DNA of 64,000 nucleotides from Brevirhabdus pacifica (lineage in GTDB: Bacteria; Pseudomonadota; Alphaproteobacteria; Rhodobacterales; Rhodobacteraceae), in the NCBI RefSeq assembly GCF_002797755.1, contig NZ_PGFI01000011.1:1426001-1490000 (forward strand), read 5' to 3'. Shown piece by piece: positions 13,275 through 42,843 of this stretch (the first letter of the stretch is position 1; each line of letters starts with the position of its first letter). A program made the position numbers and the translations under genes. The notes under the pieces were generated by a model. The model had not been told where the DNA came from, made no database searches, and was given only the letters and a program-made list of their open reading frames with translations.

Positions 13275-13397
13275 TTAGTCGCGAAGACAGGGGCACGACA
13301 TGCCGATGTCATCGCCGCAGATCGGGCATTCGTCTTCGTCGTCCTCGTCTGGACGATAGCCCTCTGTCAGCGCATCATCATACCATTCATCATCCAT
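13275..13397 (-). CDS. 40-aa acidic protein with CPxC zinc-ribbon-like motif
   Basis: The minus-strand ATG at 13397 is preceded by AAAGGA. The product is strongly acidic (about 14 Asp/Glu in 40 residues) and carries ECPICGDD and a terminal SCPCLRD, a CxxC plus CxC pair that could hold one zinc. It is the last gene of the minus-strand small-gene cluster. No homolog is recalled. Confidence 0.6.
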   Translation of the reverse strand: MDDEWYDDALTEGYRPDEDDEDECPICGDDIGMSCPCLRD

Positions 13398-13451: not shown

Positions 13452-13631
13452 CTATTTAGCCTCGCCGCGGAGGCGACGAATTTCGGCTTCTTGCGCAACG
13501 ATGATTTTCGCCGCCTCGCGGTAATCTTCAAAGTCCTGTGGTTGCATGTCTCGCGCTTCACGACCTACGCTTGCGGCCCACCGATAGTGCTCTAGCTGTT
13601 CAGGGTCAATGCTCCAAAGTGGTCTGGTCAT
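13452..13631 (-). CDS. 59-aa small phage protein
   Basis: The ATG at 13631 is preceded by GGAGG five bases away on the minus strand. The product starts MTRPLWSIDPEQLEHYRWAA, is helical and rich in Arg/Glu, and ends RRLRGEAK. Expressed with its neighbours as a small early cluster. Function unknown. Confidence 0.6.
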   Translation of the reverse strand: MTRPLWSIDPEQLEHYRWAASVGREARDMQPQDFEDYREAAKIIVAQEAEIRRLRGEAK

Positions 13632-13640
13632 GGTGCCTCC

Positions 13641-14046
13641 GGGGTTAGTTGGATTCGGGTTTCGGCGGGATGTATTCTTGGTTCCGGCTGGCCTTGAATT
13701 GGAACCCGGTGAAGGTCAGGCCATGCTTGTCCTGCCACGCGTCCATTGTCTCGCGCACCATCTTTTCAAGGTCGGCGCGGAGTTCCGGTTTGATCGGAAA
13801 GATTTCGACGTCTCCCTCGGGGTCACCGTGATCCTCGTAGGCGCGTTCTTCGGCTTCCTCTGCGAACATGTGGCCGTCAAAGTATCGGCTTATCTTGATA
13901 TTGGCTGGCTTCATCGCCTCAACAATGTGGCCGCCGTCCTGTTCTTCGGATGCGATGTAGACCGCTTCCTCTCTGGTTTCGCATTCGGTGTGGTAGCGTT
14001 CATCGTCGTGGCCGACCCACCATTTCCAGTTCTCTTGTTCGCTCAT
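13641..14046. repeat. Direct repeat copy A, about 406 bp
   Basis: This stretch matches 14322-14727 at an offset of 681 bases. All coding frames that cross it read the same in both places, so the copies appear identical at the base level. The unit contains one ORF; the 72-aa Cys-rich ORF lies between the copies. Confidence 0.85.
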
Positions 14047-14073
14047 TCTATCAGCACGTCCGCGCTTCGCCAT
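13645..14073 (-). CDS. Duplicated small acidic phage protein, copy A (142 aa)
   Basis: The start at 14073 is chosen because GGAGG lies five bases upstream; it adds nine residues (MAKRGRADR) before the MSEQENW start used by copy B. From MSEQ on, the 133 residues are the same as in copy B at 14326-14727. The protein is Trp/Glu/Asp-rich with no membrane segment and no motif that I recognise. The new N-terminus was created at the edge of the duplication, so the two paralogs differ only there. Confidence 0.7.
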   Translation of the reverse strand: MAKRGRADRMSEQENWKWWVGHDDERYHTECETREEAVYIASEEQDGGHIVEAMKPANIKISRYFDGHMFAEEAEERAYEDHGDPEGDVEIFPIKPELRADLEKMVRETMDAWQDKHGLTFTGFQFKASRNQEYIPPKPESN

Positions 14074-14088: not shown

Positions 14089-14307
14089 TTAGTTGGGCAG
14101 TGGTTGATCAAAAGAGTGTTCGCGGCAGAAATGTCCTGCGCCGGTGGTCTCGACCCGTGCCGGCCTGTAGCGGCGGCAGATGCCCTCGCCGTCGCCCATC
14201 CAATCACGAAGCCACCAATAGCACGTGTCGCAGCGCCGCCCTTTGGCCCTTTGCTCCGCCATGTGGCAGGCGACACAAGCCCCGCCGTCGCAGTCGTTAT
14301 GAAGCAT
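14089..14307 (-). CDS. 72-aa Cys-rich, probably zinc-binding phage protein
   Basis: The ATG at 14307 is preceded by GGAGGAGAG on the minus strand. Cysteines and histidines occur as GGACVACH, CDTCYWW, a single Cys in GICRRY and HFCREH, enough for one or two zinc sites. This fits a small zinc-ribbon protein of the kind common in phage early regions. It lies between the two copies of the duplicated ORF. Function unknown. Confidence 0.65.
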   Translation of the reverse strand: MLHNDCDGGACVACHMAEQRAKGRRCDTCYWWLRDWMGDGEGICRRYRPARVETTGAGHFCREHSFDQPLPN

Positions 14308-14321
14308 CTCTCTCCTCCGGG

Positions 14322-14727
14322 GGGGTTAGTTGGATTCGGGTTTCGGCGGGATGTATTCTTGGTTCCGGCTGGCCTTGAATTGGAACCCGGTGAAGGTCAG
14401 GCCATGCTTGTCCTGCCACGCGTCCATTGTCTCGCGCACCATCTTTTCAAGGTCGGCGCGGAGTTCCGGTTTGATCGGAAAGATTTCGACGTCTCCCTCG
14501 GGGTCACCGTGATCCTCGTAGGCGCGTTCTTCGGCTTCCTCTGCGAACATGTGGCCGTCAAAGTATCGGCTTATCTTGATATTGGCTGGCTTCATCGCCT
14601 CAACAATGTGGCCGCCGTCCTGTTCTTCGGATGCGATGTAGACCGCTTCCTCTCTGGTTTCGCATTCGGTGTGGTAGCGTTCATCGTCGTGGCCGACCCA
14701 CCATTTCCAGTTCTCTTGTTCGCTCAT
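14322..14727. repeat. Direct repeat copy B, about 406 bp
   Basis: Partner of 13641-14046, same orientation, offset 681 bases, no difference seen in any translated frame. Confidence 0.85.
14326..14727 (-). CDS. Duplicated small acidic phage protein, copy B (133 aa)
   Basis: Starts MSEQENWKWWVGHDDERY at 14727, with CGGAG about eleven bases upstream. It matches copy A at 13645-14073 over its whole length. In-frame extension further upstream has no ribosome site. The family is unknown. Its regular start suggests that it is the ancestral copy and that copy A arose by duplication. Confidence 0.7.
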   Translation of the reverse strand: MSEQENWKWWVGHDDERYHTECETREEAVYIASEEQDGGHIVEAMKPANIKISRYFDGHMFAEEAEERAYEDHGDPEGDVEIFPIKPELRADLEKMVRETMDAWQDKHGLTFTGFQFKASRNQEYIPPKPESN

Positions 14728-14782: not shown

Positions 14783-14926
14783 TTAGGCGCCCTCTGCGCT
14801 TCTGAGCGCACACAGAGCGTTTGCGGCGTTGCAGGCCGCTTGTGAGAAGTGCAGCGCCTCGGCGGCACTGTGCGCCTCAGCCGCTTTGGCGATCAGCAGC
14901 TTGATTTGCTCGGCCTGGTCTTTCAT
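14783..14926 (-). CDS. 47-aa small phage protein, first gene of the minus-strand cluster
   Basis: The ATG at 14926 has CGGAGGT about nine bases upstream. Ala-rich helical product (MKDQAEQIKLLIAKAAEAHS at the start) with two cysteines. It is the promoter-proximal gene of the leftward small-gene cluster whose promoter lies in the operator region at 15013-15055. Function unknown. Confidence 0.6.
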   Translation of the reverse strand: MKDQAEQIKLLIAKAAEAHSAAEALHFSQAACNAANALCALRSAEGA

Positions 14927-15012
14927 CGGGTTCTACCTCCGAATGTGCCCGCGCTTGGTTTGGGTATTGCCGCGAGGCGGGCGGTTTCGCAGCAATCCGT
15001 GTTCCCCTTGAT

Positions 15013-15092
15013 GTATGCTATTCGATTACATACAGTATGTCAAACATTGACATACATTTAATAAGTTGCCAGTATGCAGGCCATGAGCATAC
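15013..15092. promoter_or_regulatory. Divergent phage control region with three 21-bp palindromic operators
   Basis: Three sites of the form GTATG-N11-CATAC, each 21 bp, lie at 15013-15033, 15035-15055 and 15072-15092. The middle site has nine-base arms and contains two outward-facing TTGACA boxes: 15047-15052 on plus, 15043-15038 on minus. On minus, TAGCAT follows at 17 bp inside site 1. On plus, the -10 position at 17 bp (CAGTAT, weak) overlaps site 3. The layout resembles a lambda-type switch where a dimeric repressor controls both directions. The repressor gene is not in the window. Confidence 0.7.
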
Positions 15093-15280
15093 AAACGCGC
15101 ATGGCGTGGCAAGATTTCCTGACCGATGAAGAGCGTGCTGAGCTTGAAGCCGCAGATGCGAAATTCGCTGAGGCGCAAAGGGCTTTGGAGCCGGTCAAGG
15201 CCGACAGGGATGCCACCTTGCGCAAGTTGAAAATCCGGTGCGATGCGCGGATGCGTCGCGCCAAGGAAAGCGACACATGA
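15083..15280 (+). CDS. Small early phage protein, 65 aa, coiled
   Basis: Starts MSIQTRMAWQDFLTDEERAE. ATG 15083 is preferred because an in-frame ATG at 15074 would sit in the predicted -10 region; neither has a good ribosome site, so a leaderless mRNA is possible, as for lambda cI from PRM. The charged helical product (DEERAELEAADAKFAEAQRA) has no helix-turn-helix, so it is not an obvious repressor. The start codon lies inside operator site 3. Its stop overlaps the next ATG. Confidence 0.55.
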   Translation: MSIQTRMAWQDFLTDEERAELEAADAKFAEAQRALEPVKADRDATLRKLKIRCDARMRRAKESDT

Positions 15281-15354
15281 CCTTTCCCTTGCCGATGGTG
15301 GCGGCCGAACAGAACGCAGCCAATGTGCGCAAGTCGCGCGCGAAGAGATCCTAG
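15277..15354 (+). CDS. Tiny coupled ORF, 25 aa
   Basis: MTFPLPMVAAEQNAANVRKS followed by five more basic or polar residues. The ATG overlaps the previous stop as ATGA, and an AAGGAG for the following gene begins just after its stop. It may be a real micro-protein or only a coupling ORF. Confidence 0.35.
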   Translation: MTFPLPMVAAEQNAANVRKSRAKRS

Positions 15355-15368
15355 AAAGGAGCGCAGCC

Positions 15369-15611
15369 ATGGTTGGCGGAAAAATTATTGAAATTATGCC
15401 GATTGGCAAAACGCCCGAGGGCCGCAGCGTTTCGCGCCTGTGGTGCGTTGACCGAAGCGGCGACGAGTGCGCTGTTCATGTCGAGGATGCGCCAGCAATG
15501 CCACTTTTGGGCGATGAAGTTTGGTGGCAGGCTGGCAAGGTCTATTGGGACCATGACCGCCGCGAATTGCGGAAGGTCGGCTACAGCTATGACCCCCGCG
15601 CTAAAGTCTGA
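15369..15611 (+). CDS. Small phage protein, 80 aa
   Basis: AAGGAG nine bases before ATG 15369. The product is a small beta-rich domain with a Trp-rich core (DEVWWQAGKVYWDHD). It belongs to the plus-strand early operon under the palindromic operators. No family recognised. Base composition is a little less GC-rich than the tail genes. Confidence 0.6.
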   Translation: MVGGKIIEIMPIGKTPEGRSVSRLWCVDRSGDECAVHVEDAPAMPLLGDEVWWQAGKVYWDHDRRELRKVGYSYDPRAKV

Positions 15612-15625
15612 ACAGGAGCGGACGC

Positions 15626-15829
15626 ATGGCGACGATTGAAGCCCTAAACCGAAGTCTGCGCATCATTCTGTTAGATGATGGGAAAACGTACCCGATCACA
15701 AATTGGTTCGACAACCACGGCAATGACTGTGACCCAGACGAAGCTGAATTTGCAGTTGCTGGGCCGGATGCAAACGGAAAGTGGTACACGATTGAGCTTG
15801 GTGCCTATTCGCACCTCGGAGTCCATTAA
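15626..15829 (+). CDS. Small phage protein, 67 aa
   Basis: CAGGAG precedes ATG 15626 by about ten bases. The product reads MATIEALNRSLRIILLDDGK at its start and contains NWFDNHGNDCDPDEAEFAV. It resembles its neighbour at 15369 in size and beta-rich character. The gene is clearly lower in GC than the host genes, in line with foreign origin. Last protein gene before the tRNA-like element and the attachment site. Confidence 0.6.
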   Translation: MATIEALNRSLRIILLDDGKTYPITNWFDNHGNDCDPDEAEFAVAGPDANGKWYTIELGAYSHLGVH

Positions 15830-15851: not shown

Positions 15852-15923
15852 GGGCCGCGTGGCGGAATGGTTAGACGCACTGCCTATGGCGGCACATTCC
15901 GGGTTCGACTCCCGGCGCGGCCC
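15852..15923 (+). tRNA. tRNA-Leu-like element with abnormal anticodon arm
   Basis: The ends pair as GGCCGCG with CGCGGCC. The D region GTGGCGGAATGGTTAGACGC follows the leucine tRNA pattern, and the T arm is perfect (CCGGG, TTCGACT, CCCGG). The middle, CTGCCTATGGCGGCA, does not give a normal 5-bp stem with a 7-base loop, and the long variable arm of a leucine tRNA is missing. At 72 bases it is either a degenerate tRNA, a mini-tRNA carried by the phage, or a tRNA-mimic. Anticodon cannot be assigned. Confidence 0.4.
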
Positions 15924-16047
15924 TGCCCCGGACGCAATGGATAGGAGGGAGCCGATCCCCCCGTGTCACAGTTTCCCCCTACGTTTCTGCTATGTCCCTG
16001 TGATCCGGCGTAGGCTAGGGCGTTGAAATCGCCCGGTGTCGGGACAA

Positions 16048-16102
16048 TTCAAAATCCCCCGGTGGCAACACCTTGTCGGTTCGAGTCCGACCTCGGGTAC
16101 CA
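16048..16102 (+). other. attR: 3' half of a tRNA-Leu(CAA) gene
   Basis: From the anticodon loop TTCAAAA (anticodon CAA) on, this is a normal leucine tRNA 3' half: stem TCCCC, variable arm GGTG-GCAA-CACC, T arm GTCGG-TTCGAGT-CCGAC, acceptor CTCGGGT, then ACCA. The bases to the left do not supply the 5' half (GCCCGAG would be needed). This is what remains at the far end when a phage integrates in a tRNA gene and restores it at the other end. The intact copy should lie at attL, left of the window. Confidence 0.75.
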
Positions 16103-40534: not shown

Positions 40535-41685
40535 TCGGCGATCAGGGTAACGGTGGCCATGGCGGCGATCCCTTCCTCTCGACCGGTGAAGCCCAGCCGC
40601 TCAGATGTGGTGGCCTTGACGCTGACCCGGTCTTCTTCGATCCGCAGGATGCGGGCGATTTCTTTTGTCATTGCAGCGGCATGCGGGCCGATCTTCGGGT
40701 GCTCGCAAATAAGCGTGCAATCGGCGTTCGACAGGCGGAACCCCCGCTCGGCGGCCAGGGCGACGGCGTGGTCCAGAAACCGCTCCGAGGCCATGCCGCG
40801 CCATTGCGGATCACTGGGCGGAAAATGGCGACCGATGTCGCCCGCGCCCAACGCGCCGTAGATGGCGTCGGTGATGGCATGCATGCCGACATCGGCGTCG
40901 GAATGGCCGACAAGGGCGCGGTCGTGATCGACCCGCACGCCGCAAAGGATAACCCCGTCGCCGGGGCCGAAGCGATGCACGTCGAAGCCGTTTCCGGTAC
41001 GTATGTCCACCCGGTCCCCCAGCAGTTTCGCGGCGCGCGCGAAGTCGGCGCCGGTGGTCAGTTTCAGATTGGTTTCATCCCCCGCGACGATACGGACGTC
41101 AAGGCCGGCGGCGCGGGCCACCTCGACATCGTCGGCGGCGGGCGGCGCATCCGTTTGGGCGGCGCGGGCCAGATGGGCGGCGCGCAGGGCGGCGGTCGCG
41201 AAACCCTGGGGTGTCTGGGCGCGAAACAGCCCGGCGCGGTCGCGGGTGCCGCTGACCAGATCGTCCCTGCCGGTCCAGAGGGCATCGGTCACGGGCAGGG
41301 CGGGGGCGGCGCCGGGGGCTGAGTCCAGCGCATCGATCACCCGGTCTATGAGGTCGGCCGCCACCAGCGGACGGGCGGCGTCGTGGATCAGGACGCCCGC
41401 CGTCTCGACCGCCTCCAGCCCCGCGCGGACCGAGGCGGCACGGTCCGCGCCCCCGTGAACCTGGCGCAGGCCGGGAAAGCGCGCCTCCAGATCCAGGGCG
41501 GCAAGCGTTTCGGCATCGTCGGGATTGGTGACGAGGATCAGCGCGTCGATGCGTGGATGATCGGCAAAGGCGGCAAGGGTGCGCAGCAGGACGGGGGTGC
41601 CGGCCAAGGGGCGAAACTGCTTGGGCAGGCCGCCGCCCGCGCGCAGGCCGCGCCCGGCGGCCACGATGATTGCGGTGATGTTCAT
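40531..41685 (-). CDS. ispDF: Bifunctional IspD/IspF of the MEP isoprenoid pathway
   Basis: 384 residues from ATG 41685. The N-terminal IspD part has [19 protein letters not shown] and [10 protein letters not shown]; the C-terminal IspF part, from about 229, has [29 protein letters not shown] and the C-terminal [17 protein letters not shown]. It catalyses cytidylyl transfer to methylerythritol phosphate and the later cyclodiphosphate formation. The fusion is common in Alphaproteobacteria. The IspF zinc ligands (DxH, and His in GHSD) are intact. Confidence 0.95.
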
Positions 41686-41853
41686 GCCCCCGTCATAAGC
41701 AGCGGCACGCGCTGTGGCAACGGCGGCCCCATTGGCCCGGAAGTCTGCACAAATTTTGGGCACTGCATGTCTGGGGTCATTTCCGGGGGGCGGTTTTGTT
41801 GCATCCCGGCTGCCTCTGCGGTAGCTCGAGGATGTTGCACAAGGATTGAGCAT

Positions 41854-42843
41854 TTGACCGTTCGGATAGCATCCATAACCCCGGATACCCCCGTCTTCCT
41901 GGCCCCCATGGCCGGAATCACCGATCTGCCCTTCCGCACCCTGGTGCGCCGCTTCGGTGCCGGGCTTGTGGTCTCGGAGATGGTGGGCAGCCAGGAGATG
42001 GTCCAGGCCAAGCCTTCGGTCCGCGCCAAGGCCGAGCTGGGGCTGGGGGTCGAGGGCACGGCCGTGCAGATCGCCGGCCGCGAGGCTCATTGGATGGCCG
42101 AAGCCGCCCGCATGGCCGAGGCCGGCGGCGCGCGCATCATCGACATCAACATGGGCTGCCCCGCCAAGAAGGTGACAAGCGGCTATTCCGGCTCGGCGCT
42201 GATGAAGACGCCCGATCACGCCCTGTCGCTGATCGAGGCTGTGGTGAACGCGGTCTCGGTGCCGGTGACGCTGAAGACGCGGCTGGGCTGGGACGACGCC
42301 TCGCTCAACGCGGCGCCTTTGGCCCGCCGCGCCCAGGAGGCCGGGGTGCAGATGGTCACCATCCACGGTCGCACCCGGTGCCAGTTCTATAAGGGGACCG
42401 CCGACTGGGCCGCCATCGCCGACGTGGTCCAAGCGCTCGACCTGCCGGTGATCGCCAATGGCGATATCGTCGATACCGCCACCGCCCGCAAGGCGCTGTC
42501 CCTGTCCGGCGCCGGGGGCGTGATGGTGGGGCGCGGCGCCCGCGGTCGTCCCTGGCAGCTTGCCGCGATCGCGGCGGGGCTTGAGGGCCGGGGCCAGTGC
42601 CCGGAGCCCCAAGGCCACGACCTGGCCGACCTAGTGGCCGAGCATCACGCCGCGATCCTGTCCTTCTATGGCCAGGAGCTGGGGATGAAGAACGCGCGCA
42701 AGCACCTGGGCTGGTATCTGGACGCGGCGGGGCAGGGGGCCCACCCCGAGCGTCACGCCCTGCTGACCGAAACCCACCCCGACCGGATCGCGCCACGCCT
42801 GCGCCGGATCCTGGCCGAGGCCCCTGTCGAGGTGGCGGCATGA
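41854..42843 (+). CDS. dusB: tRNA-dihydrouridine synthase B (NifR3)
   Basis: 329 residues. No ATG precedes the domain; TTG 41854 has AAGGA nine bases upstream and is taken as start. [25 protein letters not shown] (catalytic Cys), [10 protein letters not shown] and IANGDI are Dus signatures. It reduces uridines in tRNA D-loops with FMN. It is the first gene of the nifR3-ntrB-ntrC arrangement known from Rhodobacter capsulatus. ATGA overlap with ntrB. Confidence 0.93.

Follow-up and report, generated by a model that had tools for sequence, protein, structure and literature searches.

What do three closely set palindromes near the right end of a Brevirhabdus pacifica prophage control, and which protein recognizes them? 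They lie in a stretch of 64,000 nucleotides (C1:1426001-1490000 of the genome), called the window here. The initial annotation had read them as the operators of a divergent phage switch, at which one dimeric repressor would choose between a cluster of small leftward genes and the rightward early genes.

Operators and promoters at the right end of the prophage

The three GTATG-N11-CATAC sites that had been annotated were all found (Table 1), each with 10/10 of the specified bases, and they are the only 3 exact copies in the genome (3,424,577 bases, ~3.42 Mb). At the composition of the window, chance would provide 0.005 exact copies per 64 kb and 0.28 per 3.42 Mb, and a control motif, read backward, had 0 exact copies in both the window and the genome. 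When ≤2 mismatches were allowed, the window held 6 sites in total, which was not above the number in shuffles (mean 8.57); the signal therefore consists of the three exact, clustered copies. The sites, described as evenly built, are indeed alike, but they are not evenly spaced, their start-to-start distances being 22 and 37 bp.

Site 2 is composed of GTATGTCAA-ACA-TTGACATAC and carries, as annotated, two outward TTGACA boxes. The leftward box is paired with a TAGCAT that does lie within site 1, and the resulting promoter was the sole promoter-like match (10/12) in a consensus scan of 14900-15400. Since shuffles of this region give 0.5 such matches on average, the weight of the leftward promoter rests on its conservation. 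The rightward box is paired with CAGTAT, a weak -10 that overlaps site 3 as predicted, and this putative promoter was not reported by the scan of 14900-15400. An array of operators over divergent promoters is thus supported, with a weak rightward promoter. The rightward start codon had been placed where a transcript would begin; the ATG (15083-15085) does lie about 7 nt after the weak -10, and a leaderless message, suggested on that ground, is compatible with this arrangement and possible.

Table 1 Features of the array and its surroundings (window positions unless marked C1).
Feature	Position	Strand	Description
Leftward gene 6 (predicted)	13275..13397	-	40 aa, Cys-rich
Leftward gene 5 (predicted)	13452..13631	-	59 aa
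Leftward gene 4 (predicted)	13645..14073	-	142 aa; second copy of gene 2
Leftward gene 3 (predicted)	14089..14307	-	72 aa, Cys-rich
Leftward gene 2 (predicted)	14326..14727	-	133 aa, acidic; phrog_1672
Leftward gene 1 (predicted)	14783..14926	-	47 aa; ORF with Shine-Dalgarno-like sequence; no Pfam/PHROG match
Operator site 1	15013..15033		GTATGCTATTCGATTACATAC; exact match; left half overlaps leftward -10
Operator site 2	15035..15055		GTATGTCAAACATTGACATAC; exact match; both outward -35 boxes inside
Operator site 3	15072..15092		GTATGCAGGCCATGAGCATAC; exact match; overlaps rightward -10 and ATG
Leftward promoter	15015..15043	-	TTGACA-N17-TAGCAT; -35 at 15043-15038, -10 at 15020-15015, 17 bp apart
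Putative rightward promoter	15047..15075	+	TTGACA-N17-CAGTAT; -35 at 15047-15052, -10 at 15070-15075
CDAR-family gene, candidate autoregulator	15083..15280	+	65 aa; adjoins array on right
Short ORF downstream of CDAR gene	15369..15611	+	80 aa; weak Pfam match, E 0.13
Short ORF	15626..15829	+	67 aa; weak matches to uncharacterised families, E 0.009 and 0.033
Right attachment core	16047..16061		ATTCAAAATCCCCCG; common to tRNA-Leu(CAA), C1:1400311-1400394; right prophage end
XRE repressor-like (CI-like) gene	C1:1409992-1410324	-	Pfam HTH_3
YdaS/Cro-like gene	C1:1410414-1410644		Diverges from CI-like gene

The prophage extends over about 41.7 kb, from the tRNA-Leu(CAA) gene, with a phage-integrase gene at this left end, to the right attachment core, after which a stretch resembling the 3' part of a tRNA-Leu was seen by eye. 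A tRNA-like sequence without clear anticodon (15852-15924; ARAGORN 'tRNA-???') lies just inside attR. The array is located at the right end. On its left are six predicted small leftward genes (14926 to 13275), and on its right three short rightward ORFs precede attR. The latter show no sign of being early replication genes, and their designation as early genes was not borne out; among the flanking genes, most of them without assigned function, there was no match to a replication gene. Leftward gene 2 has a partial relative in Paracoccus phage vB_PsuS_Psul1 (37.5% over 59%) and another one in prophage G395, far from the array of the latter. Leftward genes 4 and 2 (13645-14044 vs 14326-14725) are identical at 400/400 compared bases, which reflects either a recent tandem duplication or an assembly effect.

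Operators and CDAR genes stay together in different surroundings

According to the initial annotation, the window holds no repressor gene. This holds for the CI-like gene, which is located about 15.7 kb to the left of base 1. The strongest candidate for the regulator, however, is inside the window, namely the first rightward gene, for which we coined the name CDAR after the conserved RCDARMRR-like end of its product. Members of the family in the six prophages carrying the array have 58-68 aa. The protein encoded in the window is acidic in its first part (residues 1-36, net -5) and basic at its end (residues 37-65, net +5), and its predicted structure (AF2/AlphaFold; pLDDT 89.5, pTM 0.50) is a short helix followed by one long helix (15-64). 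No Pfam match was obtained at E≤1, and the 65 residues contain neither a GIY-YIG nuclease domain nor an HTH or other recognised DNA-binding domain. Foldseek found no match to the model in the PDB; a sequence search of the PDB gave at best E 0.052, with helical proteins such as syntaxin. Two PHROG matches were weak (E 0.017 and 0.081), three relatives had none, and the annotated phage and plasmid record collections contained no match. Among 385 genomes of the class, a CDAR profile matched the own genome alone. Third codon positions vary most in 6/6 pairs among the CDAR genes of four prophages, and the reading frame looks to be under purifying selection. Two CDAR clades differ by a seven-residue stretch (one heptad), as expected for a coiled coil. 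The best matches of a literature search held no description of an operator-CDAR element, which is not a claim that it is absent from print.

Viral contigs were scanned for two neighbouring GTATG-N11-CATAC sites, and 22 contigs were retrieved. The gap was 1 bp in 7 of these, namely the own prophage (L028), five other prophages (G394-G398) and L020; six of the 7 adjoin a CDAR gene, and L020 is not among the loci obtained by protein search. The motif thus recurs, at an identical 1-bp gap, in five prophages besides the own one, and the first of the two outcomes named by the initial annotation as refuting it, a lack of enrichment in related prophages, did not occur. The other 15/22 contigs contained repeats or other palindromes. 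In two low-GC viral contigs (L012, L014), paired GTATGTT..ACATAC palindromes occur at a constant 10-bp gap and are perhaps the operators of another regulator; four contigs of 57-58% GC (L013, L015, L022, L027) have large composite palindromes, with GTATGCA/GTATGGG units around TATACGTATA. The two-site pattern was present in 1/394 sampled genomes of the family (the own one). In the genome collection, the 1-bp-gap pattern was found in 3 stretches: one is a Leisingera copy of the G394 cassette, and two, from Phocaeicola, look unrelated to it.

The six array prophages (the own one and G394-G398) are largely dissimilar. In 6/6, the outer 5+5 bases of site 1 are identical, as are GTATGTCA and GACATAC in site 2 and the 1-bp gap between both sites; the left flank of the array is not conserved (mean 3.2/6), whereas sites 1 and 2 do not vary in their outer half-sites. 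The leftward TTGACA-N17-TA(G/A)CAT (TARCAT) is also kept in 6/6, with its -35 in site 2 and its -10 in site 1, so that these inverted repeats are part of the core promoter. An exact site 3 is present in the own prophage, G394 and G396; the site has 1 mismatch in G398 and has lost its left half in G395 and G397, and the rightward promoter is weak and variable across the six. When ORFs of ≥35 aa were compared by all-against-all BLASTP (E<1e-4), CDAR was the only cluster represented in all six prophages; no other cluster occurred in more than 4/6, and the two reaching four were antisense ORFs over the CDAR gene. Pairs of prophages share 1 to 11 ORF clusters, shadow ORFs included. At the DNA level, the homology block between the own prophage and G396 (40709-40975 with 41635-41901) matches the operators and CDAR gene, and blocks comprising the array and CDAR recur between the own prophage and G394 or G398, G394 and G398, G394 and G396, and G395 and G397. 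Homology blocks are found elsewhere too, in a recombinase (G394/G397), a GapR-like gene and leftward gene 2. A serine-recombinase-like gene follows CDAR in G394, G397 and L032, and the Leisingera copy of the G394 gene matches Pfam Resolvase. The GapR-like DNA-binding gene of the own prophage (C1:1414256-1414504; PF10073, E 1.3e-33) has relatives in G394 and G398.

Twelve CDAR loci were accepted: the own prophage as the start, five first obtained by the motif scan and six by protein search alone; protein searches free of the motif also return the six array prophages. Several of the CDAR searches used alignments seeded with motif-linked members, and L077 and L078 were found with an alignment holding L065. 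In the 200 bp upstream of the gene or operon, the best site had 0 mismatches at 7 loci, 1 at three loci, and 3 and 4 at one locus each. A site with ≤1 mismatch is therefore present at 10/12 loci, compared with 73/6000 random 200-bp windows, the latter being an upper bound, as true sites were masked only roughly and 8/6000 windows contained an exact site. The six loci from protein search alone include one exact site, three sites with one mismatch and two loci without a site. Left out of the set were L060, L061 and L062 (E 5e-4 to 9e-4), L063 (match within a longer, different-looking ORF), and L066 and L067 (E 4e-5 and 6e-4; a stop inside each); on inspection, none of these six rows had a CDAR tail, and L060-L062, L066 and L067 had no site with ≤2 mismatches.

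L065, L077 and L078 come from 3/125 genomes of one other genus and have a standalone CDAR gene preceded by a site; 8 or 9 nt separate the end of the site from the ATG, and the match is exact in L065, with one mismatch each in L077 and L078. Across the site from the L065 gene lie a Peptidase_S24 (umuD-like) gene and a gene resembling umuC; L078 has umuD-like and umuC-like genes after a 108-aa ORF, and DNA likeness suggests an umuD-like neighbour across the site in L077. Since each of the three has a separate GAAC-N7-GAAC box on the umuD-like side and the site lies so close to the CDAR ATG, the site goes with CDAR. In L032:2743-3180 and L057:2162-2689, the CDAR segment is the C-terminal part of GIY-YIG nuclease proteins.

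Candidate binding proteins

We think it probable, from these comparisons, that the CDAR product, or a factor tied to CDAR, binds the operators and represses both its own promoter and the divergent operon. Against an autorepressor stand the 2/12 CDAR loci without the motif (the GIY-YIG fusion of L057, and the divergent member L059, which has ATACACC-N7-GGTGTAT palindromes instead), the imperfect site 3 in 3/6 prophages, the poor rightward promoter of G395 and G397, the lack of a recognised DNA-binding domain in CDAR, the divergent orientation of the CDAR gene, which unlike aca genes is not part of the operon, and the rarity of the cassette.

We considered the possibility that a host-encoded regulator binds the array, CDAR being a passenger with a host-controlled promoter. 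This main rival draws on the same lack of a DNA-binding domain and on the finding that no phage gene besides CDAR is common to all six prophages. Yet, the host genome contains no further exact site, and the extended motif with 2 mismatches finds 4 other sites vs 3 in the backward control, from which we claim no host-wide regulon. Furthermore, the two-site array is absent from 393/394 sampled genomes of the family, operator and CDAR stay together both in prophages and beside umuDC-like genes, and the divergent relative in L059 has different palindromes. A host regulator is, in our view, unlikely. LexA was also considered and rejected: GTTC-N7-GTTC boxes are scattered in the prophages and, in the relatives, precede the umuD-like gene, but none is at the array.

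Alternatively, the real binder might be a ribbon-helix-helix (RHH) regulator similar to those of L032 and L057, which the remaining prophages would encode at another place. In L032, a one-mismatch site is followed by an RHH-like gene and the GIY-YIG::CDAR fusion, and in L057 an RHH gene (NikA-like, by Pfam) precedes the fusion. However, L057 has no site upstream, the L032 gene was assigned by eye and has no Pfam RHH match, and neither RHH protein was convincingly matched in the six array prophages (best E 0.36), making this explanation quite improbable.

In the lambda-type CI/Cro switch, a tripartite operator lies over divergent promoters. RacR/YdaS of Rac (PMC5700373) also lends itself to comparison. 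The array resembles such switches in that its three operators cover divergent promoters and the prophage is a temperate one, which does have an XRE/YdaS-Cro-like pair; the CI-like gene of this pair lies left of base 1, where the initial annotation had advised a search for an HTH repressor. This pair (C1:1409992-1410644) is, however, about 31 kb left of the array, which sits at the attR end; it does not flank the operators, and the palindromes between its two genes, CTAGACAAGTTTCCTAG and TACTAGAAAACTAGTA, are of a CTAG type unlike the array sites. Moreover, no other GTATG site with ≤1 mismatch exists in the prophage, the CI-like/Cro-like promoters included, and the CI-like gene was found (E≤1) in 1/6 array records, that of the own prophage, though the records may be incomplete. 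The region of the pair is likely to be the immunity region of the prophage; the array could not be upheld as the phage decision switch, and we give very little credence to an immunity switch bound there by the CI-like repressor. Close to the immunity region, a RelA/SpoT-domain gene (C1:1407631-1408854, L005:1631-2854; PF04607, E 8.7e-17) matches the PADLOC candidate defence family PDC-S33 (E 5.7e-87).

A role of the repeats as replication-origin iterons or as a partition site, which their close spacing and an A+T-rich gap might suggest, is scarcely credible, for they are palindromes rather than direct iterons, the conserved features include promoter hexamers, and no gene besides CDAR goes with the array in all six prophages.

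A proposed regulatory cassette and its relation to known systems

Returning to regulation by CDAR, we propose that the array serves as the control region in a mobile regulatory cassette, about 265 bp long, which consists of the operators and the CDAR gene and borders a variable locus of accessory genes near attR. The leftward promoter within sites 2 and 1 would drive a swappable set of small genes, with an anti-defence gene in at least one relative, and the weaker rightward promoter would drive the CDAR gene, possibly as a leaderless message. Binding of the palindromes by the CDAR protein (or, with lower probability, by a factor linked to it) would block both promoters, the outcome being an early burst followed by shut-off. 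What the comparisons establish is the presence of the sites, how well they and their spacing are preserved, the kept hexamers of the leftward promoter, and the linkage of operator and CDAR in different surroundings; CDAR binding, repression, its timing and any anti-defence role in the own prophage are what we infer from them. Models of binding by antiparallel rods were dropped because a length change of exactly one heptad between the CDAR clades, with no change in operator spacing, would argue against them.

The leftward genes beside the array vary among the six prophages, with a pyrophosphatase-like gene in G396 and a phrog_625 gene (a family without assigned function) in G394. In G397, the first leftward gene matches PF24729 Acb2_Tad1_hairpin (E 4.5e-15). 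CBASS and Thoeris are the systems targeted by Acb2 and Tad1. Both proteins are phage-encoded and sequester second messengers used in abortive defence (PMC12043709). In the other five array prophages, the own one included, the leftward genes that were scanned comprised no recognised counter-defence gene, and the remaining scanned leftward genes gave no informative match. That a recognisable anti-defence gene is seen in only 1/6 prophages, which is not the own one, counts against the proposal.

Besides its main immunity region, phage P22 has a second one for regulation, immI (Arc/Mnt). The array similarly stands apart from the likely immunity region of its prophage, but no Arc/Mnt-type gene was found beside it, and layout and operators differ. 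A further comparison is with acr-aca operons and their anti-CRISPR-associated repressors, Aca1-10 (PMC9410906), in which inverted repeats likewise lie in a core promoter, which there serves a few counter-defence genes, and are paired with the gene of a small phage regulator. In contrast to the aca genes, which are inside the operon and after the counter-defence gene, CDAR is divergent from the operon; it also has no HTH (no Pfam HTH, and one long helix by AF2), repression is putative here, and a known acr gene was not found at the array. I-TevI, a T4 homing endonuclease of the GIY-YIG type, uses its DNA-binding part to repress its own promoter (PMC2988022), and in L032 and L057 a GIY-YIG protein has the CDAR segment as its C-terminal part. 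Unlike I-TevI, the CDAR of the own prophage has no GIY-YIG domain, and the operators here are palindromes that extend over a divergent promoter as well.

If CDAR binds the array, a protein of 58-68 aa without a recognised DNA-binding domain would be a minimal autorepressor with an operator predictable from sequence. Operator and CDAR together are found at the edge of variable operons of small genes, and since one of these carries an Acb2/Tad1-type protein, the cassette could point to new counter-defence genes in these prophages. A bolder reading, less likely than not, is that CDAR proteins form a new class of DNA-binding repressors, very small and built of a single long helix, perhaps as parallel coiled-coil dimers with basic C-terminal ends. 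They would have arisen from GIY-YIG nucleases or been donated to these, would move together with their operator and would control whichever counter-defence genes are adjacent. If this were true, the cassette would be a marker for undiscovered anti-defence genes, as aca genes are for anti-CRISPRs.
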